Made by a program: the position numbers and the translations under genes
Notes under the pieces: model-generated
Seen by the model: the letters and a program-made list of their open reading frames with translations, nothing else
Databases searched by the model: none
What the model was told of the DNA's origin: nothing
Source of the DNA: Pomacea canaliculata
Taxonomy: Eukaryota; Mollusca; Gastropoda; Architaenioglossa; Ampullariidae
Assembly: GCF_003073045.1 (NCBI RefSeq)
Contig: NC_037592.1
Location: forward strand, 19,549,844-19,613,843
Reading direction: 5' to 3'
Length of the DNA stretch: 64,000 nt
Shown: positions 35,511 through 63,952 of the stretch, in pieces
Layout of the letters: every line of letters starts with the position of its first letter
How positions within the stretch are numbered: the stretch's first letter is position 1

Positions 35511-35872
35511 AAGTTCCATGTCTTACTCAGCAGCAGTCATAAAAAGGTTTCTCAAAACATCCAAATTGTCGCCATTAGGATGGAAAGTTCCAGAAAATGC
35601 ATTTGAAATTTGTTATTTTTTTTTTAAATTAAAAAATTTTTTTGTTTAATTTTTTAAAAAATTTCCCCTCCTGAGTACTGAGTTTTACTATGGAAGTCTA
35701 CAATAGTGTATGAAACTGCATCAATCAACAACATTCATTGTAATCTACAATTTATTATCTTCTTAAGTCTGTTTATCGCGAACTTCTTCCCATCAGTCTT
35801 CATTCGATGAATGCTTGCGCCTTATACTCAATAAGGTTTGATTCTAAGATCTGTGGACAGTTAGCAGCCTGA
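35511..35872. other. Short spacer before the giant transposon
   Basis: AT-rich DNA including a T/A run at 35600-35660. No feature is recognised. It is the left flank of the KDZ element insertion site. Confidence 0.5.
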
Positions 35873-35879
35873 TTGTAAA
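35873..35879. repeat. Left target-site duplication TTGTAAA
   Basis: TTGTAAA directly abuts the left terminus CACCCGGTT and is repeated perfectly at 63946-63952, immediately after the right terminus. A perfect 7-bp direct repeat exactly outside matched inverted termini supports a single insertion event. Confidence 0.8.
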
Positions 35880-36029
35880 CACCCGGTTCGCATCATACTG
35901 AGTATACAGAGTTAGTTGTTGAAAGGGCATACTCAGCATGCTGCAGAACATGTCCTGATGTTCCAGTAGTCTGTTCCCCGCATACTCAATATGCCAAGAT
36001 CTACAATAACAAGGGATTTAACTCTCGAC

Positions 36030-36810
36030 TCGTTTTCCTCTCTCTCTCTCGCTCTCGCGCTTGCACCACAAGACTCATTTTCCTCCCTCTCTTTCGCTCG
36101 CGCGCTTGCACCGCACACTCCCTCTCGCTCGTACGCACGCAAGCGCACACATGCACACTCTCGCTACGCACTGTCGCTCGTACGCAAGCGCACACCACAC
36201 ACATACTCGAACGCAAGCACACACACTCTCCCTCTCGCTCGTACGCACGCAAGCACACACGTACACTTCTCTAGCTCGCACACGGAAGCGCGCGCACACA
36301 CACACACACACTCGCAAGCACACACACTCGCTCGCACGCAAGCGGACACACACACACTCGCTCGCACGCGCAAGCATCCAAGCGCAAACACACACACGCT
36401 CGCTCGCACGCGTACGCACGCAAGCGCGCGCACACACTCTCTCACTCGCACATGCAAGCATGCAATCCCACACACACTCTCTCTCGCTCGATCGATCGCA
36501 CGCGCTCGCACGCAAGCACTATCGCTCCCACGTGCACACACGCAAGCACACACACTCGCTCGCGTGGAAGCGCACGCAAGCCCAACACACACGATCTCTC
36601 GAACGCGCAAGCATACAAGCGCACACACACACTCTCTCGATGGCTCGCGCGCTTTTGATCTCCACGTATCGATCGTTCTCCTCTCTCTCTCGCTCTCTCG
36701 CGTGCACGCCCACTCTCTTTCTCGAATGGGCACATTATACCTTCTCTCTCTCTCGCATGCGCATGTACACCATATACTAACCCCCTTTCTCTTGAATGTG
36801 CACGCACACA
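36030..36810. repeat. Subterminal CA/CG-rich tandem repeats, left arm
   Basis: Irregular units such as CTCGCTCGTACGCACGCAAG and CGCACACACACACTCTC repeat through the arm. They produce several overlapping long open frames rich in His/Thr/Arg/Leu on one strand and Cys/Val/Arg on the other; none looks like a real gene. The right arm has the same kind of array at about 62850-62950 and 63471-63790, interrupted by a Tigger copy. Arrays beside the termini may be transposase binding sites, as in other DNA transposons with subterminal repeats. Confidence 0.75.
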
Positions 36811-37320
36811 CATAATAAATAAAAAAGAAAAAAATAAGATTAAAATGAAGAGATGAAGAAACACGTGCAGTATTAAGAAAATAACAGAAATTACCTCCAT
36901 AATTTTTTGTGGTTTCTGTGGTCCAATTTACTGAGCTACGTGCATTTAAGTATATTTATTGAAAATCTATTAACAAAAAAATCTACAACAAAAAAAAAGT
37001 TAAGGTATTTTCTTGCTCTTTTTTTCTTAACTCGTTCTCTATTCTCCTTCTCGCGCACGTACAGATCTGTACACACGCACGCACTCTGTCATTTGCAATT
37101 AACAGTAGTTAAAAATGAAGTTAATAACGTCCAAATTTGGTGTAGTCAAATTAAACTCCGAGGTTGAATTGATCCCAACTGGACCCTTCAACTTCAGCTG
37201 AAAACAAACAATTAACGCTCCCTCGTCCCGCCCTTTTCAGGGGAACTAACTACTTCACAGTCCATTTGCAGTTCCGTGGCGCGGAAATATAACCAAGAGG
37301 CTGTACGACATACTTGCTTG

Positions 37321-37342
37321 GATCTGTTCAGTTTGGTAAGTA
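37321..37342 (+). promoter_or_regulatory. Splice donor at inner end of left arm (5' leader exon of companion gene)
   Basis: TTCAGTTTG|GTAAGTAGATG is a strong consensus donor, with the exon ending at 37335. The next acceptor in the inward direction is CTCTGTTCAG at 38043-38052, directly before the first coding exon. The promoter and untranslated first exon of the plus-strand gene therefore probably lie in the arm. The same donor occurs in the right arm. Confidence 0.55.
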
Positions 37343-38055
37343 GATGTCACATTAATGTAAGAAAGTGTTGCTTACAATATTACCGCATAAATTGGACATA
37401 TACATGGTAATGAAAAATGGTTTGATGCTTAGGACGGCGCATGTGTTGATGCTTGAGTCATGTCCGCAAATGTGAGAAAAAAAAAAAAAATAGAGATTTC
37501 AGGGAAATTTAAAGGATAATGGATAGGTACGTGTATTTACTAGAAGACATATGGTAGAAAGAGAACTAGTGTGCATACTTTCATGACACCCAAGTCTGGA
37601 TTGATAATGCATAAAGATATATTTAGGCCATTTAATTCTATAGTTGATGTTTTTATTTTAATGATATTTGATATCAGAGTCAAATCTCCAATGTAAAATA
37701 ACACAAATTGGTGTCAATGCAATGTGATCATGAAGTGTTACAGTCATGAGCTGATTTCTCAGAAATTTTTTATCTGTTACAAACATGTCTCATCTTACTA
37801 TTATTTGAGAATGAGAATCAGAGCAAATGTAGAAAATCAATTTAGGATGTACTTTAAACAGATCATCATGCTAAAAAATTGCACAGTTCCACTTGACCCA
37901 AACTTCTGAATTATAAATGGTGTAAATATAGTCGAGCTGCATGAGTACTCTGTTTTGATAATAAATTATATGCAACATTGCCATATTTCATGAGAAGAGT
38001 ATGTTTGATCTTTTCCTCACTTCTTGCATTCTATCACTTTTTCTCTGTTCAGATC

Positions 38056-41000
38056 ATGGAGCTGACGAAAAAAAGAATTACTGCATTTAATGCCTTTTGC
38101 AGCCAAAAGCAAAAGGGTATGTTAATTTTTTCTCTGTGCTTTGAATCCTCTTATAATATGGTGATTTTCTTCTTATAATTCTATATCATTATGTAAAAAA
38201 GTAGAGATTATTATAGATCTTTTGACTATGTAACCTTTTCTGGTGAGAGGTTTTAATTTTCTATACCTGTTGTGCCTATTATTAGGCACTGCTATTGCAT
38301 CTATTGTATCATAACTGTTTAATTGTTTTTCTTTTTGCTAGATGATCCCCAGATAGGTCTCGGCTGCAAACTGTGGTCGAGAGAATGGCGTAGCATGGGA
38401 CCTGTAGAGAGGGAAGATTACCAAAAAATAGCCAAGGGTTTGTCCTTAAAAGGACTAAGCCCGGATAAATTTTACCGAAACATAGTAAAACTGGTAGCTC
38501 TCTTATTACTCTTATGCTTTATGTCAATGTTGTAATTTTTCATAAAATTGTTGATGTTAGTAATAGATGCTAATAAACTTTAAAATGACAAAACTAATAA
38601 TTTATGGTAGGTGATTGTCTATAAGTTTAAAGCATTACCATATAGTCTGAATTAGTGTACAGTATGAATTTTGATCAGTACAATAAAAGAATGCTAATAA
38701 ACTTGTACAAATACTAATATTCTTGCACTTATATAGATCATTCAGCACTTAAAGGAGACAGTAGATACTTTTTAGTCTCTTCTTTATTGATTACAGGTCA
38801 GACGTGTCATTTTATTTCTTGTATTTGAAGCTGTTTCTACCTGTTGGAATTGTGAAGGCATGCTGAATTTTCTCTGTGTTACAGATAAAAGAACTACAGG
38901 AAATGCCAGACTCACAGTATGAGTCTGTGTGCGTCCTCAGATTGCAAAATAATCAATTCTCTTGCAAGGGATTTGGTCCACTAACACATATGCTAGATGA
39001 CTTCGAAACGAATAGAACGATCTTTGGTTTTGTTTCTAGAATAAGTGAAAAAGGCAAGTATTTTATGTAGCTGTTTCTATTTGAACAGTTGTGTATATAT
39101 TCCTGTTAACAGTAAAACCTAAATGAGCTAAAGCCATTAACAAAGAGATTATACACCTTCACAGTGTGATCCTGTTAGTTCTGCTGTCTGAATTGAAAGT
39201 TGGTGTCTAGGTCACTTTGTTCTGGCATACAGCCAAAATAGCAGTCTGATCGATCACTAATTACCAATGAACCATATACCTTCTTGGAGCCATACAAGTG
39301 GCCATCTTAGGTCAACTTTTCTTATTGCTTAAATTGTCTCAGCCATCCTTGCAATCCATCAAAACTGATGAATGTGGCTTACATGTACTTTGCAGTCTTT
39401 CTACTTCTTAATTCACCTGTATCCAAATGAATCATTTTTTAGCATTTCATACATTTCTTGGTCCATTTTGGCAGTTTCTTGTTATCATAGAAGACAACTT
39501 TTATTTCCAATCAAATTTATGTTGTTATAGCATGGAGTAAAGGGTTACATACATAAAAAAAAAAAAAAAATACAGCTGAACCGCAAAAAGTAAGGTGGTC
39601 ATTCAATTGTTTTGCAAGTTTTAAGTAGTATTTTTATAATGTTTTATTTTATGGAAGTGTGCTATTTGATCTTTCTTTTTTAGCTAAGAAAGAGACTGTA
39701 ATTTCTCTGAGGGGAAAAGTAAGGGAGAAGCTGTCAAAAATTGCTAGTAAGTGTCTTCCGTCATTTCACATGTACCTTCTCACATTTTCGTTAATGTATA
39801 TTAACAACTTATGTATAGTTTCATAATTTTTTTGATGAAAACAACTATTTTTATAATAGGCAAACATTCCAATAAGAATGATAACCAACTGTATGTGGTC
39901 CATTTGCTAAAATTCTTTAATGATTATAGAAAAAAGTATAAATTCTTTTAGCTGTTTGTATATCATGCTGCTTTATTCAGTGAATGCTTTCATTTCTTTC
40001 ATCTGAAGCTCATGTTTCTGTCATGTCAAGCTTATAAAGCATTCAAGTGTCATTGATCTGACAGATGTAGTGTTTTTGAGTTTACATCAATCTGCTAAAC
40101 ACGTTTTAAATCTATAATTGTTTCATTTAAAGGAAACAGTTGTAACTGATTAAGAAAATTGTTAAAATGATAGTGTGTTAATGCTATTAGAATTGTTTAA
40201 CTAACAAGTCAAGGAATACAGGGATTTATAGAATGTTGAGATATATACGGATGTTTGACGTGTTTTCAGAACGGGATCTTGGCCTAAATCAGTTTCCATA
40301 CAAAAGATTACAGCGGGGAGAATTTGAGGTAGAAGGAGTACCATCATCTCTTTTGCCTCTGAAGCCCCTTTTAAAGATGAATAGCTTGGAATTAAAACAG
40401 CTCATGGACAGCGCTGTATCAATCAAGAGGTATGATTACTTCAATTACTGTGTTTTAAAAGTAATCTCTTAGATATGATGGTCTTCCCCCAGCATCCCCA
40501 TGCACAGTTTTAGATGAGAATACTTGTGCATACCATATATCGTACTGGGTAGATAAATATTTTTATATTTCTTATCACCTTTATATTGCTTGAAAGCAAA
40601 TAAGCTGTGAGTTAAATTGAGTAAATATTAATTTCACTTTACAGTGACCTTTCACTACGTAGTGGTCTGACATTGGAAAAAAATAACTCACCAACATGCT
40701 ATTGCACATCAGGTCTTTACAGATAATAAACATTATTAAGAAAACAGTTAAAATTTGTGCTAAGTTCTTGATTGGCATACACATAACTCTTGCAGGATAT
40801 CTGCAACACATCTGGCAAGTCACCATCATCCCCCTGAAGATGCAACAGAAGAGACACACCATACACCAAACACAGTTACACAATACATCAGATAGACCAC
40901 AATAAACACACATATGACACAGTGCAGCAGAAAGACCCCATTGATATATCACATCCCATACCACACACTGTCCACCACACAGGCATAATGCAGGCACAAG

Positions 41001-43135
41001 ACAAAGAGAGCAGAGATACATCACAGGTTCAGATGCAGACAGGTGACTTGAGGTAATATCAAGTACAATTTTTTTTAAATGTTTGTATTAGCTGTAAATA
41101 AATGTAGTTTAAATGTTGTTGATGACAGATGTTGTACGTTGTTAGATGACAGAATTATCTTAAAACTGTCTTAATCATATAGTCTCACATGTGTGATGTG
41201 TCCGTCACACATAAACAATGTTAGAAAGTGGTGCACCCAATTTATATTGTTAACTGGTATTAGGAGCAGAGCAAAATTAAGGACGAGGATAGCGCAGTCA
41301 ATTTTTTGGGGGGTAATGTTTTTTAAATAGAGATCCCATAGTGTTTTTCTGAGTTTATTTGACCCTTCTCAGCCATTGTGCTTTCCTTTCCCTTTTTTTT
41401 GTTCATTTGTGTGTTATTGTAGATATTCACTGAATTTTGATATTTCACGGTCAACATACAATTGTGCATGTACTATGGATTTATTTAAAGTTCAGTATAC
41501 CTTCCCATGAATTCCTTTAGAGAATATAAAATAGATTTTGTTTTATGTTTTCAGCAGGAATTTCACATTGGAGTCTTCTGGTATATTTTCTTTTATCTTT
41601 AAGTTTAAAGTCAATACCTTTTTCAAGCTTTAATGTTTGTTTTTATCAGAAATCATACATCTGTTATGCTTATATTTATAAATACTTTTGAATTCATTGT
41701 TGGTAAATGTTACATCTGATAGTATTTCCTTCCTTCTCACTGATTTTCATCATTAGCATATCTTAGGCAATTATACATTTGTTTATTGTCAACATGGAAT
41801 AGTTAAGTATTTGAACAGATTTAGCATGAAGCAAATAGCTAGTCAGTTGATCCAATGGCCCTATTGAATGCCATCTTTAATGAATACATTAAGACTGCAG
41901 CAGTAATTTCATTTCAAATGCACTTCATTTCAGGTGGTACTCAGCAGCAGACTGCTGTTTTGGGTGACTCTGGCGAGCTTGTTTCAGGCTATACAAACAA
42001 AGAAAATGAAAGTAAGTCTAAAAGACAAATTTTGTCACAGAAGTTTTGTCTTTTATTTTTGCTTTCAGCATTATTAAGCTTTAGAAGACTGTCAAATATT
42101 CCATGCTTGCCGTCTGCTCCTCAGCAGAAAAGAAACTAAACATGTTTAGTACACACATGAATTTTTACAGTTATATTTCATGGCTTTTATAGGCATTGAG
42201 GTGAATGTTACTTTTCTTCACTTAAATATATTTTCTTCGGGTTATTGCTTCTACCTATTTGTATTGCTTCTTTTCTTCTTCCACTGTTGCAAACTATGTT
42301 CCGCCAGAGTATTTTGTGATAATGATTTGTTTCCTTTCTTGTCCTCCTCTGATATTTTATTATGTGGATATCCCTTTTGTTTAATGCTTCATTTCTGTCA
42401 CTTATGTGTCTTTACTGCTTAGTTGTACTTCATTATCATCATTGGCCACCTGTTTATGTTGTACAGATTAACCTTGTAGACGCCCAGGTTGCATGCTTCT
42501 ATGTGAGCAAGATTATGTCTGTATAAACTGTACACTATTATTATTATTTCAGGTGGAAATCTCCAGCAGATAACAGCTTCCATTGTACATCTTGGTTCAA
42601 CCACAACCCAAGTACAACCCAAGCCTAAAAGTAAGGGTAATCGAGCACTGTATATCATATATAGCTTAGGTTATGGCTTTCAATGTACTGTAGGTTTTGC
42701 TATTTGCATTGCTTATTGTCTTCTTTGACAGAGTTCCATACAAAGTACCTTGCTTTTTAGCTTCTAGCATATATTGCACCAAACAATTGGACCTGACACT
42801 AGTTACACCATTAGTGTAATCCTTTCCTATGTAGGTTATTTTAGTTTGTTTCTTTGTCAATACATTACTATGAAGGTGCTGATTGTAACATTTTCGAATG
42901 TTTTGCAGGGCAAAGACTTAGATGGAACTCAGAGGCACTGACAGTATTAGAAGATAGCCTTGGCCCTCTATTTGCTCTGGATGGTCCCTTACCTGGATCT
43001 GACCGCCTAGAGCACATTAGAAATAGTACGCAAGTTTTACAGAAATATAGTGTACAGCAAATATATCAAAAGCTCTTTAAGATGATTAACAAAAAGAAAA
43101 AACAAGAAGCGAGTAAGACATTTGGACAGAACTAA
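38056..43135 (+). CDS. Companion protein of the KDZ element (HMG-box-like N-terminus, SANT-like C-terminus)
   Basis: Coding exons: 38053-38116 (ATG 38056), 38342-38493, 38885-39053, 39684-39746, 40270-40429, 41934-42011, 42553-42630, 42909-43135 (TAA). Phases agree at every junction except between 40429 and 41934, so an exon was probably missed there. The N-terminus (KRITAFNAFCSQKQK, then LWSREWRSMGPVEREDYQKI) has the pattern of an HMG box. The C-terminal exon (RLRWNSEALTVLEDSLGPLF, then an Ile/Lys-rich helix) resembles SANT/Myb-like modules. The middle (LGLNQFPYKRLQRGEFEVEG) is unassigned. The intron after 39053 uses a GC donor (G|GCAAGT). A candidate polyadenylation signal lies at 43638 and another at 44262. 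A DNA-binding cofactor of transposition is inferred from location; an unrelated captured gene is possible. Confidence 0.7.
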
Positions 43136-45269: not shown

Positions 45270-46037
45270 GATCTGATGTCCGGTAACAAGAAGGAAGATT
45301 GTAATAGACAATCAGTCAAACTTAATGGCGTGAGTGATCAGGACTTGTCAAATGTTTTGAAAAACTGTTATGCACGTTTTGAGAATCATGATTTTTCTGA
45401 TAAAGTTAGGGCACTTGTCCCTAATGATAACAGTAATTTCTCAAGTCGATGTGACAAAACTGCTTAAGCGGGTTAGGGTTAACAAGGCGAAGGGCCACAT
45501 GGAATATGTGGGCGAGTCTTGGATTGGTGTGCTGTTCAACTAGGTGGAGTGTTTCAACACCTCTTTCAATTCTCTATTGACTCAGGGCACATTCCTACAC
45601 TCTGGAAACTCTCTAACATCATCCCACTCGCCCAAAAAGCTAATCCTAGTCAACCTAATGATTTTCGGCCAATAGCACTAACCTCCCTCATAATGAAAAC
45701 CCTTCAGAAGATTGTCAAAAATCTCATCCTAACATCAGTAGAGAGTAAATTGGACCCACTGCAATTTGCTTATAGGAAGGGTAGGAGTGTTGATGACGCC
45801 AAGTTGTTTATTTTGAACATGCTGTATAAACATCTGGAAAAGCGCAAGACACATGCCAGACTACTTTTCGCAGATTTTATTTCTGCATTCAACACAGTGC
45901 AACCATACCTTCTAGCTCTGAGACTATCTGGTTTTGACCTACCACACCAATTGGTCTTATGGATAGTGGATTTTTTTACATGCAGACAGCAGAGGGTGTA
46001 TGTGTATGCCCTGTTTCCAACAAATATTTTTAGATGA
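45270..46037 (+). mobile_element. LINE relic with reverse transcriptase (Rex1/CR1-like)
   Basis: Plus-strand frames give SDQDLSNVLKNCYARFENHD (linker) and, from 45519, the RT fingers and palm: LWKLSNIIPLAQKANPSQPN, DFRPIALTSLIMKTLQKIV, QFAYRKGRSVDDAKLFIL, LLFADFISAFNTVQP. Alignment to the LINE at 59.4-60.6 kb (VDDAKLFTLHTLIKHLE, LLFTDFSSAFNTIQP) shows the same family. It ends at an A-rich run near 46037 before the YADD motif, so it is 3'-truncated or rearranged. Confidence 0.8.
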
Positions 46038-46079
46038 AAAAAAAAAACAAAAAACAAATGCACACCTACCCATCACACA

Positions 46080-47451: not shown

Positions 47452-50400
47452 TTAATTTTTTTGAAATCCAGGGTGATGACACAAAGTGCCCTGAAGCAAA
47501 TGTAACATGTCTTCCACTATCATCTTGCTGAATGACTTAACATAATTCAGTCCAAGATGATATCGAGTGTGATCAGTCAAGTACTGCACAGGTGAGATGT
47601 TATAATGCACCAGCCACTGCTGCAGAAGGTCTATATCTTCGAGGATACGTTTCTCTTCTTCTTCTGCACAGCAGCATTCGGTAACAGAATTGGCAGCTTG
47701 GACTTGCTCTCTACACAAGTTGTGATTGTTGTTTTCATATACGGCAGACTTAGGGTTTGCAAGCTGTGCAAATAAAATATTGATGCCCTTCTCTCGTAGC
47801 TGGTTGCCAACAGCCTGTAGATTAGTGGTGTTGAGATGAAGTCTTTTTGTGAGTCGCATGGCAATTTTCTGACCATCTGCACAAAACATTGTAAGGTAAG
47901 AGTGACCCAAAAACATTCTATAGAGAAAATGGTCAAACAGTACTTATACAATATTATGCATGCTGCCTATATGCAACCATCCCAAGAAAAATGTCATAAC
48001 TGAAACATGAATCAAATGATTATTCAACAACAAGCAGAGTATATAATCTTACTGTATATGCCTTGAAGGTAAAAAAAAAATTACAGTTAGAATGCAAACT
48101 ACAGAGTTTTCTTATGGGAATAATGCCTCAGATGACTGCAAATATAAAATAACCCCTTAAGTCATGCAGTGTATGATAGTGCAATCTTGTATATTCTTAA
48201 TGGAACTGTATGATTAATTAATTAACTAGAAGATTTTAAATATTTCATACAATCCTTGCTGCCCTGAAATGTGAAGGAATGACATTTTACTTGAACATCA
48301 ACCTGTACAAGAATTACATTTTCAATGATAATGAATTTAAAAAAAATAAATACAAACCAGCATAGCGCTTCTTCAGTCCCAGCAAGTGCTGACGCTCTGT
48401 AGAAAGCTTCCTGGCCTTCTCAATCAGTGGATCAGTCCCTACAGCAAATCAAATGGTCAGATCACAACAAGCATCAATATATGTTATAATAAAATGAATG
48501 ACAAGATCACTCGTGGTAATGATAATCAATAAAATTACTGCTGGCATGCAGTCTTCTTACTATCACATGGACAATAGTGAATTATCATTTTTGAATGTTT
48601 TAATTAACTTAATTTTTTGGTAGCTTCTGCTTCAGAAAAATTGCTTTGCTTGATTATTCCTACTTTTACATATCTTTTGTTCAGCAAAGGTGAGTCTCCA
48701 TATGACATATATCTTAGTCCTAGAGCCTGTACTTGATATCACAAAATGCTGCAGCTATCATCATATCACATGCTCATTTCTGTGTTTGAAGCATTAAGAC
48801 AACTGACAATAGTTATTGTGCGGTATAATCTCTTTTACATTGTTAGTATGTGTCTTACATTTTGATGTTTGACATACCTCTTTGATCATCATTTGTCACT
48901 AGAATCTGTGTCAGTTGATGAAGCCAATCCACAGCATTTCCATCATCTGAAGTTAAAGGCAGTTTCCAACAAAGAAAAGCACAGCAATGAGGGGCACAAA
49001 AATCAAGGTGCTTAAAGGGACTATTATCTCTGGATTTATGAATTCTTTTTGTTTAGGTGTCATACACAGGCTTCGGTTTCTCTTACATTTGTTGTGATGG
49101 TAGAAATATATTACAGAGAGATACTAATATTAAGCATTCTATTCTATCCTGTATTATTCAATAAGTGTTACTTACACTTTCTTTCCACATCACTGATGAA
49201 TACCTTGGAATTCACTTGAATTTGCCTTGCTTTCTTAAGCCTTACAGAAAATGTCTGAACTGAAAGGAAAAGTAGTAATGCAAAGTCATTTGCAAAATTT
49301 GTTAAAAAAGCACCTTGAAAAAAAAACCAAATATAAAATAAATAACTATGCATGATACTTGTCAACAAAGACATTGCCCACAAAACGATCAAATACACAG
49401 TGGATCAAAAGTACCAAAGAAATAAACAAATATGCTGCCAATTATTTTACAGTAGTTTTCAGTTGTTATGATTATATATTATACATGATATAATCACAAC
49501 ACACATGTATAATGGGCTGCTCCATAAATTACCAATAGAAAAGAAAATTCTCCGTCCATAATTAAGTAGAGCACTGCTTAGAAGATCCTGTCTATTCGGC
49601 AGTGTCATCTCCTTGCTCCATAAAAATTTTCGTAGGAAGGACCACAATCTTTCAATGGCTTCTCCATCTATTAGACCGGTTCCTTTGCAGTATCGCTGTC
49701 CAAATGTCATCTACAATAGTACCATAGAATCAATCGTTGAAAATGAAATGTCTCTAATAAACAAATTGCATCTTTGTATATTTCTTATTCTTGGTTGTGC
49801 ATTCTGCATTTATTTGTATCTATATTTATGTGTATACAATAACACTATAGCAAATAATTGTATTATTATTAATCACTGCAGATAACTAACCTGACACCTT
49901 GTGTTGTGAGCAAAGCTATGGAAAACAGGAACAACCAATTTGAATCTCTCTGCAAGTTGTCCAGTCAGTTCTGGACACCTCTGTTGAAATAAAACAATAA
50001 GGCTAAATATACAAAGCTACAGCTCCAACTCAACACATTTTTATCACACCTTAAGATATATGATGTAATCATTCAGTAGTACATATTTATAAACTCTGTC
50101 TTCTCCAAAATAAGAAACCAACTAAAATAGTACATAATAATCATCACTTAACCTTGGTGTCATTATACACCTGGTGTAAACCACCATGCAGGTGGTTTTT
50201 TTTATAAAACCAATACCATGCTACAGACAATACCAATAACATACAAAACAATGTCAGTTTATTTTATCTGAAACACCTAAGATTCAACTGGTGTTTTACA
50301 TACCCCAAGATGAGCTTGCAGTCTACAGGCAATATCATACATGACAATCTGCTTTTCATTTGTAGCACCAACCTGCCTTGAAGCAATCTGCTTCATAATA

Positions 50401-52481
50401 TAGACTGGATATGCAAATCTGAAACAAATTCTAAAATTAGTAACATGTTATATACTAGATCTATGTGTGCTGTTACATTCATGACTAATATTCATAAATT
50501 ACCTTTCTCCATGCTCCATGTTCACAAAATAGAGGGGAAATCCATGGTGACACACAGAGCCAAACAATCCTTTTATATCCAGATTTGCACTTTTATTTTT
50601 AGCCCTAACCATGTCACCAGCCTGAAAGTCTGAGCACTCCTGAAAGTAAGAACATTGTACATAAAATAATAATGTTGATATTCATAACAGAACAACAACA
50701 TTCATATTATTAAAAATAAACATTTCAGTTGATAAATTATCACAGAAGACAATTATCTGGTTTATTTGAACTTATCATTGATAGAAACTGATAGAAACCT
50801 CTTACATATCAATATGTAATAATGGTAAAAATGTTACTTCTTTCATTTTATGTTAGATTGGTTGCTACGCAGTACTGTTAACTATACTGTTTTAGCAACC
50901 AAAATTAAATGGAACTAAAATACTGCACTCACTGATGATTCAGGGACAGATTTTGAAACTGCTTGGCAGTGATTATTAACGAAGTCTCTGACACTGTCAT
51001 CTGGACAAAAGTCCTGGTCCAGACCCAGAGTGCAGTTTGTGGACAAGTCCAAAATTAGCGTCCATAGAGACGACAGACCTTTCAGGTTTCTACCATAAAT
51101 ATATCATTAAATGGTAATCTTGATATAATCATAAATGTATCTGTAAAGCACCAGTTCTTGCTATAGGCATTCATGATGCATAATTTTGCGAAACTGTTAA
51201 ACACATGAGCAACATCCACCCACACATGGAAGCAAAAAAAAAAATGTATGTTTTACTAATGCTTTGAAGGCAGTCAGCATAGAATTCTAGCAAATATAGT
51301 GGCAGAAGTCTGGTTAGAGGAATGTACAACCAGAGAGAGAGGAGAAGATAAAACCAGACCGTGTGTAGATGTGAACTGAGATAAATGTTTTGATGGGGCC
51401 AGCACTACTGAGCCACTTAAAAAGTTAATTGAACATAATGATCAGTATCTACCTTTTTTTTTTTTTTTACATTTCCCTAAATCCTGCTTTAATGATTTAT
51501 TTTAAACAGATGTCTGCCTTACTAAAAATCTAAACCCATAATGATTAAAAAAAATCTTGTAGCTAGCAAAGCAGTTGAAACCTAAATGCAAAGAAATGTG
51601 TAATAAATCCTGTTTAAGCAATGACTTATTGGCACTAATACAGACATCTAGCCGACAGTTCAGGAGTACACATACCAATGTACATACTGGGCAGTTCTTG
51701 CCCACAATGTCTGGAGAATGTGCCATCTCAAGGCACGACACTTGATGATGATGGAATTCAGTTAGTGCGTTTCCTGAAAACAATATATTTGCAAACTAAA
51801 ATACTTTTTCTTGGCACTTAAACTAACTGCAAATATCCAATGACAAGCTTCAAAAAATCAGTCAGTGGTATAAACACATTTGGCATCCATTAATTTTCAG
51901 TACAAATGACACTATTTATAAATGATAATGCAGTTTCACATAATGTACTACATAAATTATTACCCAGTGCCAGGTAGAGGTTTCTGCAGTCAGTTGTGTG
52001 AGGAGGCAGGAAAGTAGTTCTTCTTTTTAAGGCAAAGCAAAACTTTTGCAGAGATAATTGACCTTCAAGCTGTAGCATTCGCCCTAGCTCCATCAGTGTT
52101 ATCGTGAAGGCTGTTTCTGGCTGTTCGGGTGTTGCTGGCCATAATCCCCTTCTAACTAAGGTAACAGCTTCTGGCGGGGGGAGGGGTGAACTGTGTTCAC
52201 GAGCTGTGCGGACGCTTTTTTTCCACGCTCTTCAATACAAGGTGTATTTTGCCTAGTTTTACGGAAGTTACTCATCTTTGTGGTGTATTGTGCAAAAAAT
52301 ACTGATCTCCCAATTACAGGCTGCATAGAAAAGTAAATTTTATGCGAATATTCAGTCAAATTAGTTGAATTTTAAAAAAATTTATGAAAGAAGCCAGGTG
52401 ACCACAGTGTTCAACGGAGCGTGAACAGCACGGCGGTAGCCTTGTGTGATTCGTGAGTGTGTGACACCTCCACTGGACGCT

Positions 52482-53756
52482 ATGGCCCGCTCCAACAAGA
52501 GTAAAGTCTTAACTGATATCCAGACACTACTCAACAAACAAGAGGAAAACATTAAACACCACATAGACGAAGTTAGAGACGAACTGAGACTCTTCAAATC
52601 GGCCATTGATAAACTGTTTATGGAGTTACAGCAAGTTAAACAAAGGCAAGAGTCACTCGAGCAAAATACTGAGAGACTAAAATATCATGTAGACCAGTCT
52701 CTCCAGGTCTTTTACGACAAGCTCAACAAGCTCGAAGGTTTCTCACGCAGAGACAATCTGAAGTTCTTCGGGATATCAGAAACTGGAGATGATTCATACG
52801 AAACCTGTGCTGCTATGATAATAAACCTCCTGCAAGAAACAATTCCGGGGAAAGTGTGGCAAACTACTGACATCGTGCGAGCGCACAGAGTCGGTAAGAA
52901 AATTGTGCCAGCAGGACATACCCAAAACAGAGAAAACAAACCACGTCCCATAATCGCTAAGTTCACTCGATGGTCTGACAAGTTGGATATACTTACCAAA
53001 GCACGAGAGAAACTGAGAGCAAAAGGTGTATCTGTGGCTAGTGATCTCACAGAAAGAAAAACGTCGATCATAAAGTGTTACAGAGATAGCGGGGTGCGTG
53101 CGTTCTACAGGGGAGACCGGCTCGTTGTTGGAGGACCCTTACATCAAAATACGAACAGACAACAGGAAGAGAGGGAGAAACCCCGAACCAACGCAGACAG
53201 CTCCCCCTCCCAGCACCAGACAACCCTGCAGCACCAGACTGATGAATACACACTAACAACAGCGCAGCGGAACAACGGAGTCCGACAGCACCGGAGCAGT
53301 CAGTCTTACTTACCTTTGGAACCGCTATCTACCTCTGCAATCAACACAAATGCTGCTACTGGCAGAGGGGCAACAGTGGAAAACCGGCATTCCAAGAGAA
53401 TTCAGTGCACACCGACCACAATAATACACGCCTTAGGCAACATTAGCAACAACCTACAGATGATTCCGACTGCTATCTTGCCTACTAAATGCCCTTCTGA
53501 ATCCAGTATTACCAATACATCTACCAGCGACAATACAAAGGGGAAGGACACACATCCATACACCAGGATAACAGAGGCCAACAACAGCCAGACAGCCGAT
53601 GTCAGCAGCGGGTGTCCACCTGACAGCAATGTGCAAGTATCGTCCCCACACCCCGCATCGGTGTCTTCGGCTAGTCGTGACCCAGAAACCACGCACGGGG
53701 TACCCGTGCTGACTAGCCGGGTAAGGACCTGGGCTGCGGTGCATAGGCGGTCTTAA
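52482..53756 (+). pseudogene. LINE ORF1 protein (coiled coil, RRM-like), C-terminus interrupted
   Basis: The ATG at 52482 (MARSNKSKVLTDIQTLLNKQ) starts a 424-residue frame; an upstream in-frame ATG at 52446 is possible. Residues about 15-95 form a coiled coil. Residues about 95-215 hold an RRM/L1-ORF1-like region (NLKFFGISE, VRAHRVGKK, PIIAKFTRWSDKLDILTKAR). The rest is Thr/Ser/Gln-rich and low in complexity. At about codon 417 the frame runs into the inverted repeat of the nested DNA transposon; beyond 57181 about 28 codons of the original frame continue (ASGYAEEVKGTQQLMRDD) to a stop. ORF1 proteins bind the LINE RNA. Confidence 0.8.
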
Positions 53757-56700
53757 CTTTTCGTCTTGCTTAACTCGCTTTTCGTCTTGGCTAAGTTCGC
53801 GGTCTCAAGCCTGTTGCATGAGCGATCTCAGCCCCTTGCTTAGCTGAGAACCGGGTCAGGTCAGCGCGGCGGTCGAGGTCGGCGATATAAATAAATTCGT
53901 TTGGGAGCGGCCTTGCCAACCGTATATTCCACCAATGAAAACTGCGCTACAGCGATGGTGCCGAGCCGCGAAATTCGTCTGCGCACCATTACTGAAACGA
54001 AGTAGGGATGTGCGACAGCGAAATATTAGTCTTAATCGAGGAGGTTACCAGGGAGAAGAAGAGGCTTTACCAGAAAAAAGAAAAAGATGAAATAAGAAAG
54101 ATATGAGCGGATTTAAGATCTTCCATAATTTCATTTCGATGTCGTCAGAAACATCCATCAGCGGACAGGGTGCCACCAGAAACACCCGTGATGAAAGGAG
54201 AAAGTGATAAATATTTTGGTAGATGATTTCAGAGAACTGATGGAAGGCATAAACATCGAAGGTTGGTCTTTTTGTTTACCTGTGTAGACTTTTTTTTTAC
54301 GTCTGTGTCATCCGCAGAAAAAGCTCTAGATACCGAGAGAATGCAAATGCAAAGCCTATAGTCAGCACACAACAGCCAGTTTGAAAATAAGTATTTCCAT
54401 CCGAAATACATTTATTTAAAATAACTAGATACATTTCTGATTTAGTTTTTGTTACAGGTGGTGAATCATTTAATATGCTGGTTCCTCCAGAAGTTTTTCA
54501 TGATAGGGGAGAGTAATAAAAATAATAATATTGACATATATAGGAGGTGCAATATAGAACACTCCAGTTCAATCTTCTAATTCAACAATGGAGATGCTTT
54601 TGCTAGAAGTATATGCAGATTTATTATTTTCATGCATAACAAACAACAATGAATTGAACATTTCAGATGATGATGTTTTCAAATGGGAAATTTTAAAAAT
54701 GTACTTTATATCAGATATTCCTGATGGTATTTTTGAACAAAACATGAAATATTAAGGAAAAGCCACCAAGGTTTTTGTACTTTAGAGAGGGCAGCTACAT
54801 ATAATTTTCCACAGCTGGCTTAAAATTATAAATTGTTTAATTCAAGTGCCAAACACAGACTATGACATAATTTGGGAGATGTACACAGCAGGTTTGTCTT
54901 TACATCCACAGTCAGTTTGGACATTTAACAAGTTTTAACTACAAGTCTAATGCATGTTACAGTACCAGTGTTCTACAGTTTAGATTCCAGTAGACACTGA
55001 TCAGCTTCTGAATGACAGATTTGCAGTGTCTACATTCTTAAACAGTTGCAAATAAGATGTTATGAAGTTCTGAAATGGCTACACCTGAGTCCAGTGAAAA
55101 GTGCTAAATATTAACTCTAAAGAGAGAAACATGTCCTTCACAATCCTACTAGTAGCATGTAGTAAATATCAACATTACTGCTTTTTATAGTTACTTGGCA
55201 TCACAAAGAATAACAAGCAACACAATAATCTATTTATATAGAAACCTTACACAGAAGAGTAATTCAAACAATACCTTTACGTAACCTAATGCGATGGTAA
55301 GTACTCAGTGCTCCCAAGTAGAAGTGTCATGAATCAATTGTTCTAAGAAACATTTCTTTCGCGCAGCATCAAGACCACACAGAGAGCCACACAGCAATAT
55401 TCAAAGCCATCAAAGCGGCTTAGGCCTAGACAGCTGCACATTTCTGAAAAAATCTTTTTGACTGTCAGATAAAACACACAAGGTGATGTACCAAGCAGCC
55501 AGAATTCCATCCGTCAACTGGGTCACCCGAAGAAAGCAAATACCTGATGATACAAAAGAATGCACAACAAAGATAAGAGAACGAAAAACTTTGTAGCTCC
55601 TGGACAGTGAACTTGAATCTTGTTAAAAAAGAATTGCAATTCATGGAAATCAAAATAAATCTGGCACAGGCTGAGGTAACAAATACTAGACGGAAAAACA
55701 GATGGAAATGGATTGGTAATGCCAGCTGCTGAAAGTGTTCACCATCTGATTGGGGTGGATGTTGCTATTCAGGCAAAGTCAAATTGAATAATAATGTGAC
55801 TATTCAGTTAGAAATTATGACAGCACAATGGAACACATGATGATTTTTGCTGTTTTGGCAGGGATGTATCTGAAGTCACAAATATATTCTGAAGCATATG
55901 ATATTAAAGGGGAGGAGTTCTTTTCCTTGTCTGCATTTAAAAAAAGGGAAACTAAGCCAGTCCCTCAGCGGGTAGCCACTGTCTCCCATATTCATCCCAT
56001 GTCAATGCCGTCAGCCACTACAACTTGCATTATGCTTGTAGCATAAAATTGTAATGCCACCATCACCTGCAAAAGACATAGGAAATATTATTGACCTCAA
56101 GGATTTATATATTTTAGTATTCACATCTAAACAAAACTGTCCATTTTTAGTTAAAAAGGACGATGATAACATTAACCTATTATGATTATCTATCTCTTGA
56201 GCCACATGCTTACAACTTGAGACATACTGCAAGGAACTGCCTGTCAAATTGATAAACATGTATTAAATCAAACTATATAAGAGATTCTGGGTGCTCTGCT
56301 ACTTTATTCTGTGTTGTTTTACTTAAATACAATGCCATCAATTTTTTAATAATGTTTACATACTCTAAAACAACACTCGGAGCACAGTGGATGGGCCAGA
56401 ATTGTGCGTCTGCTCATATAACCCAAGTACAGCAAACTGAAATTTTTTGGATTATTGCTGTCACCAGAGTGAAAGTAGAAAATTTTTATTACTTTTATTG
56501 CAAAGTTCAAGTTTTTTCCTTTCGAAATATGTATAAGTTTTGTGGTCTCATGTTTACCTGAGAGCAGCAATAATAACAACAAACATCACCCACTGTCGTC
56601 AACACCGTCTTAAGTTCTACGCCATTGTTTTATTGTGTAACTATATTTTGATGTCATTCTAACATTATTAAATATTTTTAACGTAATGCTGTCAATTACA

Positions 56701-57180
56701 CTTATTAATTATATATTTATATAGTGGTGGTGACTGTAGTCTTACCTGCAACAAAGGCGGAATAGAGTCTTTTCGTTGAAAATGATGGTCGAAATCATTT
56801 TCCACTGTTATGTTCGCTCGACGGAATCAAAAACGATGAAACAAATCGACGTCATACATTTCAAATGGATTTGATCGATCCCTGAAGTAGTCAAAAATCT
56901 GTATTTGTCAATGGTATACGCAGGGCAACTCAGTAAACAACACGATCAAGCGCCACTGTTACTACGAAAGCCGCCGTACGGTCATGCGTAAGCAGCGTGT
57001 CGCGGTTAAGCAAGGAGTTAAGCCTGGGGGGGACCAGTCTCAAATTTTAAGACTAAGACCGCTTGCTTAGCGAGTTGAGATCGCCCATGCACCGCGCTTA
57101 GCAGGCGTCTTAGGTTAAGACAGCGTGCTTGGCTTAACTGCGGTCTTAACTCGAGTTAAGACCGCCTATGCACCGCAGCC
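53731..57180. mobile_element. Nested DNA transposon, 3.4 kb, class uncertain
   Basis: Inverted ends GGCTGCGGTGCATAGGCGGT (from 53732) and the exact complement at 57161-57180 continue for 27 bp (through CTTAACT). Next to both ends lie many variants of GGTCTTAA/TTAAGACC and CGCTTAGC, and GGTGCATGGGCGATCTCA recurs near 57080. No clear target duplication was found and no intact transposase; a short Lys/Glu-rich frame near 54040-54090 is all that looks coding. The GGGCTGCG-type end is reminiscent of PIF/Harbinger elements. Confidence 0.7.
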
Positions 57181-59444
57181 AAGGAGCACGGCGTCCGGAT
57201 ATGCTGAAGAGGTCAAAGGGACGCAACAGCTGATGAGAGATGACAGTACATGTACACCCAAATAGCGCAAGAATAAGAACGGAGGAGCAAGCGAAAAGGG
57301 GAAGAAGCAAGGCTCTCTGGATAGCTATATAAGTGACAAGAACACCTCAGATAGTGCAACAAGATCACAACCCAAGTGGAAATAGGAAAAAACTGGCCGT
57401 CAGGCAAGGCGTTTGACTTGTGTTAACTATAATGTAGAGGAGATAACTTGTTGGTAGATTATATCACGTCATTTGACTTTATTTGTTTAACAGGGACGCA
57501 CATGGAGATACTCTTAACATCCTGCCAGAATACATTAAGATTTATGCCCCTGCAAGAAAATTGTTTAAGCAGGGCCGATGGTCAGGTGGGGTTCTTCTTA
57601 CGGTAAAATGCTGTTGGTCACAATATATAAAGGAAGCAAGATTTGATTCAACCAATATAGTTACACTGAAAATTGATAAAAAAATTAATGAACTCTGACA
57701 AAGATGTTATCTTGATATCATGCTATATGGTGCCAGAAGGCAGCCCTTGTTACAATTCATTAGATATAAAAGATGGCATTCACCTATTAGAGGAAAGTGT
57801 ATTGCAGTATATATAGATAAAGATGAATTCTACTAAATTTCATGTGGAGGACAGGGTCCGAACAAGTTAGTACAGATGATACTGTAAATTATTTTCCTTC
57901 TATGCTGCATTGTGTTACCACTATGTATGTATCCCCCCCATGTCAAAATGACTATATGAGTTACTGACATTAAAGATCTCGTACTCGTACTCGTAACAGC
58001 TTCTGGCTCACACTGGCAGAAATGGGATTTTATTTTATGCTGTCTCCCTGCAACAACATATCATTTATCCAATAGTCTGAATAGGATCATTTAACTGGGC
58101 CAACATACCTTTATGAAAGCATTTTACCACTCTAGCTCCTTGTTAAGTATGATCAATCCTTTCCTACAAATGCAGTCTTCAATAAGGTGAATGCCATTGA
58201 AAAATCATTTCCTGAGGCATTGAAGATACCATTGGAAATTATTGGTTTAAACACTAGAATGTCATATATTGTATATTGTAATGTTTGCAAGGAGTCCTTG
58301 AGGGACCTGATGGCATAAAGGAACTTTTTTGAGAAACAAATAGTTCCTGGGTTTGCTTTTTTTTCCCTACATAATGTACTTCTTATACTGCTGCTGCTAA
58401 ATACACATACCCAATGCATCAAAAACTCTTATTTGACGAGAGTATATGCTGTCACATGAGTGTTCATGGATGAGGGTTGTTTCTTTAATAAGGGGCACAA
58501 ACATATAAACATCCTGAAAAAAAATTAACATAAGCAAATTATCAGATAGACAAAAAATAAGATATGTTCTGTAACTGCAGGAAAAAATAAGTATACAACT
58601 ATGCAAGCTAATTTAATATTTTCAATGTAGCAGTTATCTGTGTAGTGTTTATTAATATTTGAATTAAATTTTAAGCATACACAGTGCTAACAGTGTAATG
58701 CATTCCAATAGGCTAAGATTTTGAATAAATATACTTTCACTAATTTTATACATTTAGTACTTACATTTTTCCAAACATACGCCTGATGGTACATTACCAT
58801 GCGGTGGATATTCTCATTACACATCATGCAATACAGAGTGTTGGGTCCACAGTCAGGACACCATATGATTTCGGGAACCTCAGAAGAGCCACATGAGGAA
58901 CATTGATTTGAAGCAGGACAAAATCCTTCCATCCGGGCAACAACCAGATCAGATCGTATTTTTCTCCATCCTTCTGCCTCGTTTACTGCCCTTTTTTTTG
59001 TGGCTGCTAGGTTCTGCCACCTCAGATTCATCTGTTAATAGTGCATAGTTAATAGCACAGGTAAAATATAATTTAAAAGAGCACCCATTAGAACAGATTG
59101 TCAATCTCTTCAGTGCTCTACATCCAACTATAGAAAATTATTCCACTTGGAAATAGTTCTTAAATAAATTTGCATGTTCAAAGCACTGTTGATCAAAATG
59201 CTTATGATATATCCTACTTACGCCCAACAACTGACAGTTGTTATGTGACAGCATTGCATTTTATTCTGCCAACTTTTATGAATTATTATGCAGAGCATCA
59301 TCTAATATTACTAACAACTGTTATACCCCTCAGTGTAAGTAAAAATTCTATACGAATCTAATTTATATAAGTATTAATAATGTTCTATGAATATTTGTGA
59401 CTAATAAAGTTTACCATACTTTTATTATTCTAATTTAGAATAAG

Positions 59445-60635
59445 ATAAGATAAGATAAGATAATACTTTATTAATCCCTAGAGGGCAATTCAGTTGCAGC
59501 TCGATTATATATATTAAACCCCACAGGCAGTCGAGTTGCAGTCAATCATACCAGCTCGATTAAAGTCATACATGATCGCATGCATATCACATTCATAATC
59601 CATTCAAAAGTCTGACGGCTGAAGCAACAAAAGACAGCCGCAGTCGGTTTGTCCTGCATGCAGGCATACTATATCGGCGACCTGATGGGAGCTGGACAAG
59701 TTCACCCGACAGAGCATGCCTGTCATCACGAAGGATGGCAGACACTTTCAGAAGAGTCCTCCTGTTATACAGATCCTGAAGAGAACTCTGGGTGGATCCA
59801 ACGACTTTGGAGCAGGTGGATACCACACGATGTAGGCTGCTCTTGTCCTTCACCGATAAACTATTATAGAAACAGATGAACGAGAAGGACAGCACGCTCT
59901 CTATATGTGATCTGTAAAAAAGCTGAAGAAATTGGGGGGAGACAGAGAAAGACCTCAGCTTCCGTAGGAGGAAGAGGCGTTGTTGAGCCTTCTTCACGAC
60001 AGATTGAGTGTTGACATCCCAGCAAAGTCGCCTATCGAAGATGGTGCCCAGGTATTTAAAGCAGAAACAATTTCCACCTCCTTGTCATGGATGACACAGA
60101 CGGGACACGGTGGAGAATTCCGACGGAAATCAAAGACAATCTCCTTCGTCTTACTCACATTAAGTTCTAGAAAGTTGTCATCGCACCAAACAATGAATTC
60201 TTCCAAAGCATCACCGTGAGTGTGCACCGGCCCGCTAAGGAGAGACAGCAGTGCAGTGTCATCAGAGAATTTAACAAGATAGTGACCCTCATGACTACTG
60301 CGACAACTGTTGGTATACAGGATAAACAGAAGCGGGGATAGAACACATCCCTGAGGTGAGCCGGTGCATGTGGTGGTTAAGTCGGAAAAAGTGCCATTGA
60401 CAAGAACTCGTTGCTGCCTGTCGACCAAAAAGTGAATTATCCATGACACTAGCTGATGATCAAGGGAAAACTCGTCGAGGAGTCTTCGAGCTAGGATATG
60501 TGGCTGGATAGTGTTAAAGGCCGAAGAGAAATCAGTGAATAATAGTCGAGCATGGGCTTGAGGATTCTCCAGGTGTTTGATTAAAGTGTGGAGGGTGAAC
60601 AGTTTAGCATCATCAACACCTGATGATAGCTAAGG
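59445..60635 (-). mobile_element. LINE 3' half (Rex1/CR1-like) in a KDZ intron
   Basis: The minus strand starts at VDDAKLFTLHTLIKHLE (near 60630) and continues LLFTDFSSAFNTIQP, GSPQGCVLSPLLFILYTNS, FSDDTALLSLL (catalytic FSDD in place of YADD), then LFLLRKLRSFSV and MPACRTNRLRLSFVASAV. The 3' end reads TTAATAAAGTATTATCTTATC in repeated units (59445-59480), a microsatellite-like tail. It is 5'-truncated and frameshifted at about 59995. It is the same family as the fragments at 45-46.7 kb. Confidence 0.85.
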
Positions 60636-61221
60636 TTGTCTGTCTCTGTCTCATTTAAATAAACTATGACTTCCAATACATCACTGAGAAAATACAATAA
60701 ACTGGCTCTTTGTGTACCAGATTACCATGTGTCATCCATTGATTTATGCTTTAATTATTCATGCAGATGTAGCTATGGAATGATAAACATGAGAAAATAC
60801 AGCTATGGATGTAAAATACTCTGGTGTGAGGAATATGCAGGAGGTATTTTACTTATTAAGTATACTATTCACCGAATACATATATTCAATTAACATATAT
60901 ATATATATAGTGCAATTATTGACATTCCTAGTTACAATGGTAATTTAGTTTTTCACATACTGGTTTCAAGTGGAAAGGTTACACTGGGTTCTTGCTCCTC
61001 CTGTTGAATGATTCTGGCTTCATGCTCCTCCTGTTGAATGATGCTGGGTCTATTGCCTTGTAGTGAGTCTATAGACCTCATGAGGTCTCGGTACTCCTTT
61101 ACAGAACATCGCACCTTACGGGACTTACCCTTCCTTCCATTGTCTTTGATAGTACAAACACTACCTAACTGAACACATTTTCCTCTTCCACTTCTACGCA
61201 TTGTTGATTACAGATACAAAT

Positions 61222-62245
61222 CTGCAAAATGACAAAAATACAGCACAATAGATAACTTTTGAGTCTAGAATTCCAATTTTTCATTTGGTCTGAACTTAAA
61301 TATCATTTCTCAAAGGATAAATACATATTTATCCTGTCTACAGACTCTTAGAAAATAGATCTCAGTGATAGAAAGCAGCTGGAGCCATTCACAAAATTGA
61401 TCAGATGCAAAAAATTACAGTCCTCCACTCCCGTTTTGTTGCTGGTACCATCAACATGCAATAAGACTACCCACCAAACACAAACCTCACAAACCCTTTT
61501 GAGGTTTGTCAACCATACTGAGAAAGACAATCCAGTGGAATCTCAGCACTTGAACTGCTCGGTACTAAAATATTTTGGTCTTTGACAATTTTTAAAAATT
61601 TATTTTTGGTGCTTAACCACTTGCTTGGCACTCAACCATCATGCTAAAACAAGAATGAATACCATGTTTAAGTGGTGATTAAAAAGCATCACTTTGTGTG
61701 AATTATTTAAAGAAATAAGCATATTCCTTTGTACTGTTCATGATTTTGTACTTTTAAAGTATACATATATGCAAACAATTATACATTCAGTCATTGTGGT
61801 ACCACAAACTTTATTTAGTGCTAAATGTGAAGAAACAGGAAAACAGTAACAATAATTTTAAATAAAAAAGGAACAGTGAAAAGTATGAGAATGGTATAGG
61901 TATGCTTTAAAGTAGCCATTCACTATGGATATCGACAATATTAAAACATGAGACCATTAATTAAGTTAGATGAAATAACGAAAGTAGCAAAAGTGGTAAA
62001 AAAACAACAACATATTTAGTTCTATATTTATAATGCTATAATAACTGAATTTATTTTTTAAATAAAACATTCAAAATATGCCTTACTTATCATGTGTGTA
62101 ATTGCCATGCTTTATAATGCTATGACTAATATACTGGCGATAAAACATATTCAATGCATTTACACTAGTTCTTAGTGGGGGTTGGAGGGGGGGTAGGTGC
62201 TAGGCAACACTTCTTACAATATGGATTAATTTGATAACACAGCTG
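61222..62245. other. Intron between the right-arm donor and the first KDZ coding exon
   Basis: No exon is recognised. On the minus strand it runs from the donor at 62256-62255 to the acceptor TTTTGCAG directly before 61221, giving an intron of about 1 kb if the leader exon in the arm is used. Confidence 0.45.
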
Positions 62246-62250
62246 CATCT

Positions 62251-62270
62251 ACTTACCAAACTGAACAAAT
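62251..62270 (-). promoter_or_regulatory. Splice donor at inner end of right arm (5' leader exon of transposase)
   Basis: On the minus strand TTCAGTTTG|GTAAGTAGATG repeats the left-arm donor, with the exon ending at 62257. The next inward acceptor (TTTTGCAG, 61222-61229) directly precedes the exon with the transposase ATG. Both genes of the element thus appear to be driven from the same arm sequence. Confidence 0.55.
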
Positions 62271-62961
62271 ACCAGCTAGTATGTCGTACAGTCTCTATGA
62301 TTATATTTCTGCGCCACAAAACTGCAAATGGACTGTGAAGTAGTTAGTTCCCCTGAAAAGGGCGAGATGAGGGAGCGTTAATTGTTTTTAACTGAAGTTG
62401 AAGGGTCCAGTTGGGATCAATTCAACCTCGGAGTTTAATTTGACTACACCAAATTTGGACGTTATTAACTTCATTTTTAACTACTGTTAATTGCAAATGA
62501 CAGAGTGTGTGCGTGTGTGCAGATCTATGCGTGCGCGAGGAGAATAGAGAACGAGTTAAGAGAAAGAGAGCGAGAGAATACCTTAACTTTTTTTTTTTTT
62601 TTGTTACATGTACATGTAGTATAAAATTTAAGTGATAGATTTTCAATAAATATACTTAAATGCACGTAGCTCAGTAAATTGGACCGCAGAAACCACAAAA
62701 AATTATGGAGGTAATTTCTGTTATTTTCTTAATACTGCACGTCATTCTTGGTTTTAATCTTATTTATTTCTATGTGTGTGTGCGTGCACATTCAAGAGAA
62801 AGAGGGTTAGTATATGTGTGTACATGCGAGACAGAGAGAACGTATAATGTGCCCATTCGAGAGCGAGAGAGAGAGAGGAGAACGAGTGGAGATCAAAAGC
62901 GCGCGAGCCATCGTGAGAGTACGTGTGTGTGTGCTTACGTGCGTGTGAGCGATACAGTATA

Positions 62962-63469
62962 CAGGTAGTCCTCGACTTACGACGGGGATCCGTTCTTAAC
63001 GCGGCGTCGTAAACCGAATTTCGACGTAAGTCGGATCATACGTTCATACAGTACTGTAGCATAATAACAGTACAGTCCTGCAAACACTTAGCCTATCCAC
63101 ACACCTATCCTAACACAGCAACCTACATAATTATCAATAAACATAAGTACAGTAAAATATTGTGCAGTACACTACGCTTTGTTGTCACTGTCGCTTTCAT
63201 AGGAGCAGATCCTGTCACGTGTTCAAGGATGTGATCTTCATCTTGATAATCGTAGCGACAGTCGAGCGACTAAGTCCTAATGACCTGCTAATTTCTGCTG
63301 CTGTTTCCCACTTCTCACATTGCCTTATGACTTCCGCCGCACGTGGAATGAGGATCACGTACAGTTCGACTTACGCCGCTAAACCTCGCAAGCCGGAGTG
63401 AGCGTCGTTTACAGTGTCGTAACCACGAAACGACGTAACTCGAGACCGTCGTAACCCGAGGACTACCTG
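62962..63469 (-). mobile_element. pogo/Tigger-like element inserted in the right arm
   Basis: The inverted ends CAGGTAGTCCTCGACTTACG and CGTAACCCGAGGACTACCTG are flanked by TA at 62960-62961 and 63470-63471. The minus strand around 63220-63360 reads EISRSLGLSRSTVATIIK, preceded by QCEKWETAA: the N-terminal helix-turn-helix (CENP-B/Psq type) of Tigger transposases. The frame stops soon after, and the DDE domain is deleted. The left arm has no copy at the corresponding place. Confidence 0.85.
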
Positions 63470-63945
63470 TATGTGTGCTTGCGTGCGAGCGAGTGTGTTT
63501 GTGTGCGCGTGCGAGCGAGAGAGTGTGTGTGTGTGCTTGCGTGCGAGTGTGCGTGCGTGTGCGCTTGCGTCCGTACGAGCGAGAGTGCGCGTGCGAGAGA
63601 GAGAGTGGTGCGCTTGCATGCGTACGAGCGAAAGAGTGTGTGTGTGCTTGCGTGCGAGTATGCGTGTGCGTGTGCGCTTGCGTACGAGCGAGAGTGCGCG
63701 TGCGAGAGTGTGCATGTGTGCGCTTGCATGCGTACGAGCGAGAGAGAGAGAGTGTGTGGTGCAAGCGCGCGAGCGAGAGAGAGAGAGGAAAACGAGTCGA
63801 GAGTTAAATCCCTTGTTATTGTAGATCTTGGCATATTGAGTATGCGGGGAACAGACTACTTGAACATCAGGACATGTTCTGCAGCATGCTGAGTATGCCC
63901 TTTCAACAACTAACTCTGTATACTCAGTATGATGCAAACCAGGTG

Positions 63946-63952
63946 TTGTAAA
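63946..63952. repeat. Right target-site duplication TTGTAAA
   Basis: Perfect copy of 35873-35879, directly after the right terminus AACCAGGTG. Confidence 0.8.

Follow-up and report, generated by a model that had tools for sequence, protein, structure and literature searches.

KDZ transposons are widespread yet sparsely described in animals. In Cryptococcus neoformans, KDZ1 is about 11 kb long with 241-bp inverted repeats and an 8-bp duplication, and KDZ2 and KDZ3 measure about 9.2 and 10 kb with 139- and 169-bp repeats and 4–8-bp duplications (PMC12810828). Fungal Kyakuja elements (Laccaria) have 7-bp duplications and CA..TG ends, lack inverted repeats and carry TET/JBP, while Zisupton and a Dileera element make 8-bp duplications (PMC12730594). 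Among animals, the platyfish Zisupton protein has a CxC7 domain (PMC12062965), and nematode Zisupton-like genes have up to 31 exons, with inverted repeats and no duplication found (PMC9297572). Here we describe a 64,000-nucleotide window of the apple snail Pomacea canaliculata (NCBI RefSeq contig NC_037592.1, positions 19,549,844 to 19,613,843, forward strand; all coordinates below are window positions), which very probably holds one DNA transposon of the KDZ superfamily, inserted into the snail genome as a single unit with a 7-bp target-site duplication and carrying two convergent genes, A and B, with arms, gene functions and decay as set out below. The copy displays a two-gene layout, arms that may double as mirror-image promoters and first exons, and ordered palindromes at both ends.

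The element spans 35,880–63,945 (28,066 bp) between two perfect 7-bp direct repeats of TTGTAAA at 35,873–35,879 and 63,946–63,952. Its left terminus, CACCCGGTT, starts at 35,880, and the mirror sequence AACCAGGTG closes the right end at 63,945. A 26-bp pattern written from both ends matched the window twice, once per strand and precisely at the two termini, with up to 3 mismatches allowed, against a mean of 0.00 matches in 100 shuffles. TTGTAAA is a common 7-mer (19 occurrences in the window versus a chance mean of 25.7), and two random window places shared a 7-mer in 45 of 400,000 draws, or about 1 in 9,000. No other similarity was present in the 40 bp compared outside each end, and the eighth base next to TTGTAAA differs on either side; 7 bp is the simplest reading of the duplication length, because an 8-bp duplication would require a mismatch and asymmetric ends. 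The original prediction, made from the sequence alone, had proposed these termini and the flanking repeat, both of which are borne out, and a unit that moved as a whole, which the ends, the duplication and the transposase gene described below support. It had also worried that 7 bp departs from the 8 bp of Zisupton; the difference stands, but it is no anomaly, as the published KDZ range of 4–8 bp includes 7 bp (PMC12810828, PMC12730594).

Gene B, on the reverse strand at 47,455–61,221 (ATG at 61,201; about 15 predicted exons), encodes a KDZ transposase. Its joined window exons matched the Pfam KDZ transposase domain PF18758 at 124.3 bits (cut-off 26.6, E = 7.5e-36), one exon alone passed at 31.7 bits, and the N-terminal cysteine cluster CxC2 reached 35.5 bits (cut-off 27, E = 1.2e-8). 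Along the same strand lie a zinc cluster (58,768–59,031), a CxC2-like part (51,953–52,174) and the KDZ core (51,089–49,518). Judged by these domains the element is a member of the KDZ superfamily, and Pfam thus confirms the diagnostic motifs that the original prediction had read in the gene. A frameshift at 51,010–51,036, apparently a short deletion, interrupts the exon with the SMDANFGLVHK motif and spares the motif itself. The annotated Pomacea canaliculata protein LOC112560919 isoform X2 (P0001) is 100% identical to window exons over 28, 23, 27 and 142 residues. Together with the P0019 match given below, these identities assign the window to this apple snail or to an extremely near relative. 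CxC7 gave no Pfam match in the relative P0003 (searched up to E = 5) or, at a limit of E = 0.1, in the joined exons of the window, for which the gene model is incomplete.

The inverted arms, originally put at 1.47 and 1.70 kb, were recovered at those lengths. The left arm (35,880–37,346, forward strand, starting CACC) measures 1,467 bp and the right arm (62,246–63,945, reverse strand) 1,700 bp, of which a 512-bp nested insertion forms part. Over their outermost 191 bp the two arms are identical at 187 of 191 positions, and the inner parts, 36,856–37,346 and 62,246–62,749, at 453 of 484 aligned positions; weaker similarity runs about 30–60 bp further inward, beyond the clear match. The outer and inner matched parts are separated by an extended, variable tract of CA, CG and CT runs. 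The arm lengths differ because of the 512-bp element in the right arm together with the unequal simple-sequence tract. These runs extend over several hundred bases with strong strand skew (36,027–36,650 and 63,468–63,800; GC skew −0.375 in 36,001–37,000). Alternating purine–pyrimidine DNA can take up unusual structures.

Each end carries three 15-bp imperfect palindromes, at 35,893–35,907, 35,927–35,941 and 35,980–35,994 on the left and, mirrored, at 63,831–63,845, 63,884–63,898 and 63,918–63,932 on the right. They were located with the 15-bp pattern GCATACTCARYATGC, which was chosen after the ends had been seen and was searched with up to 3 mismatches. It matched the window 16 times, 12 of these being both strands of the six end sites, three per end in mirror order; at up to 2 mismatches, 10 of 10 matches fell at the six sites. 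The other four matches, at 8,935, 25,523 (both strands) and 38,858, carry 3 mismatches, and shuffled sequence gave 6.5 matches on average (maximum 15). We infer that the end palindromes are candidate binding sites for the transposase or the gene A protein.

Both arms also carry the same splice donor context, GTTCAGTTTG before the exon/intron junction and GTAAGTAG after it, and clear arm similarity stops 11 bp past this junction. On a simple vertebrate-like score, the donor (5.02) ranks in the top 0.6% of the 7,535 GT sites in the window; of 7,839 AG sites, the acceptor 3 bp before the gene A ATG is in the top 0.4% and that 20 bp before the gene B ATG in the top 0.14%. Because the same strong donor stands in both arms and a strong acceptor just before each gene's start, the arms can be read as twin promoters and first exons, and each most likely supplies the promoter and exon 1 of the gene that reads inward from it. 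For gene A, the last part of the predicted non-coding exon 1 is placed at 37,260–37,335 on the forward strand (left coordinate arbitrary), with the donor TTTG followed by GTAAGTAG after 37,335. The predicted mirror exon 1 of gene B is at 62,257–62,332 on the reverse strand, with an identical donor and an intron from 62,256; its outer coordinate is nominal.

The transposase is not the sole gene, as the original prediction of one enclosed gene had suggested: gene A, a spliced gene convergent with gene B, lies at 38,056–43,135 on the forward strand. Its 425-residue relative P0017 matches ten window segments, in order, from 38,056 to 43,132 at 79–100% identity, the lowest-identity segment seemingly extending beyond its exon. 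Relative to P0017, one exon is frameshifted at 40,868–40,880. A second record, P0018, is probably the same gene as P0017, and a third contig bears P0020, a paralogue with 33% identity and the same layout; copies on other contigs are known here from protein records. A protein search confined to relatives sharing 5-residue words found four gene A relatives among 374 candidates, all in Pomacea, and a two-sequence profile search found the same four among 6,173. This restriction to Pomacea would suit a KDZ element that has the transposase as its own gene and in which gene A is a captured host gene, passenger cargo in this lineage, as would the published KDZ elements, in which the transposase is accompanied by TET/JBP in fungi and for which the accessible text mentions no HMG–GTF2I protein. 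However, the annotation of another contig contains a near copy of gene A, the diverged paralogue of the same layout lies on a third, and the left arm sets its splice donor upstream of gene A in mirror image to the transposase; we consider such a capture distinctly improbable.

The window's own copy of gene A is represented by P0019 (C0Q70_05398), in which the annotation has fused it with host exons lying upstream. Its annotated model employs the gene A acceptor and is 100% identical over 41 residues to flanking exons at 31,789–31,911. Labelled as a fibrinogen C-terminal domain protein, C0Q70_05398 joins host exons at 31,789–32,972 to gene A at 38,050–42,629. The model may record a genuine exon-trap transcript; otherwise it is a fusion made by the annotation, which would distort tallies of snail fibrinogen-type lectins. 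The annotated Pomacea gene models LOC112560919 and C0Q70_05398 are wholly or partly transposon.

The surprising part of the element is a GTF2I-like domain in the middle of the gene A protein (39,683–39,757 and 40,263–40,429, forward strand). It aligns to the GTF2I repeat over 58 columns (HHalign 95.4%, score 43.7), with 0 of 200 shuffles scoring as high (best 17.7). In a PDB profile search the domain reached E = 3.2e-4, and GTF2I repeats (PDB 2dzr, 2dn5, 2eje and others) were its top structural matches. Neither the Pfam GTF2I family nor single-sequence searches gave a match for P0017, P0020 or two domain slices, and the full-length two-sequence gene A profile found no GTF2I match in PDB. Towards the start, an HMG-like part (exons 38,056–38,115 and 38,341–38,490, forward strand) fell below the curated Pfam HMG_box cut-off (best E 0.0034 for the P0020 slice and 0.21 for the P0017 slice); against PDB profiles its best E was 0.039, and 16 of 21 matches were HMG proteins. 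On these scores, the HMG-like start is read as a resemblance only. A homeodomain/Myb-like part follows at 42,911–43,132 (forward strand). Separately, P0017 residues 52–82 gave a weak Pfam FYRC match (E = 0.0031, below cut-off).

We propose that each mirror-image arm holds a copy of one promoter, its non-coding exon 1 and the donor, so that the arms would drive genes A and B inward. The protein of gene B would pair the ends and carry out cut-and-paste transposition; conserved acidic residues lie in its SMDANF, YDIAC and DGE motifs, and it may have an RNase-H-like core. The gene A protein, through its HMG-like, GTF2I-like and homeodomain/Myb-like regions, may bind element DNA, perhaps at the three palindromes per end, and help to assemble or regulate the reaction. 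After insertion, this copy decayed: genes A and B are frameshifted, and at least three elements landed inside. The GTF2I-like domain in a snail transposon also offers a concrete lead on the source from which the Williams-syndrome transcription factors may have obtained their repeats. One speculative account, which we rate as rather unlikely, is that the GTF2I repeat of TFII-I factors derives from the accessory DNA-binding protein of KDZ-type transposons or has been present in both for a long time, the snail element keeping the transposon form as an HMG–GTF2I–homeodomain-like protein produced from a mirror-image copy of the transposase promoter and first exon. Among the matches listed in the open-access literature, none described a KDZ element carrying an HMG or GTF2I protein, and none accounted for the origin of the GTF2I repeat. 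A known link of GTF2I proteins to a different kind of transposon is mammalian GTF2IRD2, where a hAT transposase domain has been joined to the gene and is not a source of the repeat (PMC10641963).

Without the insert the long arms still reach about 1.2 and 1.5 kb, and they contain internal repeats, features that a pair of solo elements could also show. The structure could be a composite, with two short elements, independent and oppositely oriented, bracketing the KDZ and other genes by chance. Against this, matches to the 26-bp terminal sequence (with up to 3 mismatches) stand at the outer ends only and are absent from the inner arm edges, the duplication lies outside both outer ends, and clear arm similarity fades just past the splice donor and not at an element end; a composite is accordingly very improbable. 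An alternative in which the host genome duplicated sequence in inverted orientation around a KDZ-derived gene that it kept, TTGTAAA matching by chance, agrees with the annotation of genes A and B as uncharacterized snail proteins but is more improbable still, given the 1-in-9,000 odds of 7-mer identity at two given places, CA..TG ends as in Kyakuja (PMC12730594) with ordered palindromes, and frameshifts in both genes.

As a single transposon, this copy is decayed, with genes A and B both frameshifted and at least three later insertions. The 512-bp nested element (62,960–63,471) in the right arm has inverted ends CAGGTAGTCCTCG..CGAGGACTACCTG and adjoining TA. A segment at 41–131, near the start of the window, is 81% identical to the end of this element, which is therefore itself repetitive in the snail genome. 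Two fragments of long interspersed nuclear element reverse transcriptase are nested as well, one between genes A and B (45,483–46,037, forward strand; RVT_1, E = 2.3e-13) and one in a gene B intron (59,994–60,629, reverse strand; RVT_1, E = 7.7e-18). A nested 438-codon open reading frame (52,440–53,756, forward strand) is perhaps of L1 ORF1 type, on a weak Transposase_22 match (E = 0.018, below cut-off). The four pieces together make up 3.0 kb. The originally reported 28 kb therefore holds as the span between the ends and overstates the original size, because later elements are nested inside; the original element would have been shorter than 28 kb yet longer than 20 kb, unless it contains further unrecognised insertions.

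The surrounding sequence holds other repeats and reading frames. A repeat pair at 1,114–1,819 and 27,074–27,606 has a common 17-mer, CTCGCTACTATGCCACT, and pieces that are 85% and 93% identical. A 249-codon open reading frame at 34,857–35,606, some 270 bp beyond the left end, is perhaps a retroelement gag or ORF1; it shows a weak match to the CCHC zinc knuckle that scores below cut-off (E = 0.0069). Open reading frames with a possible coiled coil lie at 27,891–29,243, upstream of the exons of the fibrinogen model, with all Pfam matches below cut-off; we presume that they may be part of one fibrinogen-related lectin gene. Perfect trinucleotide runs occur at 29,687–29,755, (CCA)23, and 31,311–31,382, (TTC)24.

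Compared with known systems, the element shares with Cryptococcus KDZ1–3 a KDZ transposase, a cysteine/zinc cluster (CxC1 in theirs), terminal inverted repeats and the duplication range, whereas its roughly 28 kb, kilobase-long arms, second convergent gene, animal host and many introns set it apart. The original remark that its size and arm length look unusual thus stands, both exceeding those of KDZ1–3 (9–11 kb, with repeats of 139–241 bp), nested insertions contributing to the size. With Kyakuja of Laccaria it has in common the KDZ transposase, the 7-bp duplication (TTGTAAA) and CA..TG ends (CACC..GGTG); unlike Kyakuja, it has inverted arms of 1.47 and 1.70 kb, and Kyakuja carries TET/JBP, with nothing like gene A mentioned in the accessible text (PMC12730594). 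Platyfish Zisupton likewise has an animal host and a KDZ transposase, but the 8-bp duplication of Zisupton in the strict sense is replaced by 7 bp in the single copy studied, and CxC7 was not among the Pfam matches of the incomplete gene model. With a duplication like that of Kyakuja beside long inverted repeats, the element is placed here in the KDZ superfamily and in no particular sub-lineage. Its layout resembles that of RAG-like transposons of molluscs and other animals, in which two convergent genes, a transposase and a partner, lie between inverted repeats; the likeness is one of layout; RAG-like transposons have 5-bp duplications and a RAG1-like transposase (PMC7204232). Finally, the middle domain of gene A matches the repeat domain of GTF2I, GTF2IRD1 and GTF2IRD2, but where those factors are multi-repeat proteins, the gene A protein has one such domain with HMG-like and homeodomain/Myb-like neighbours.
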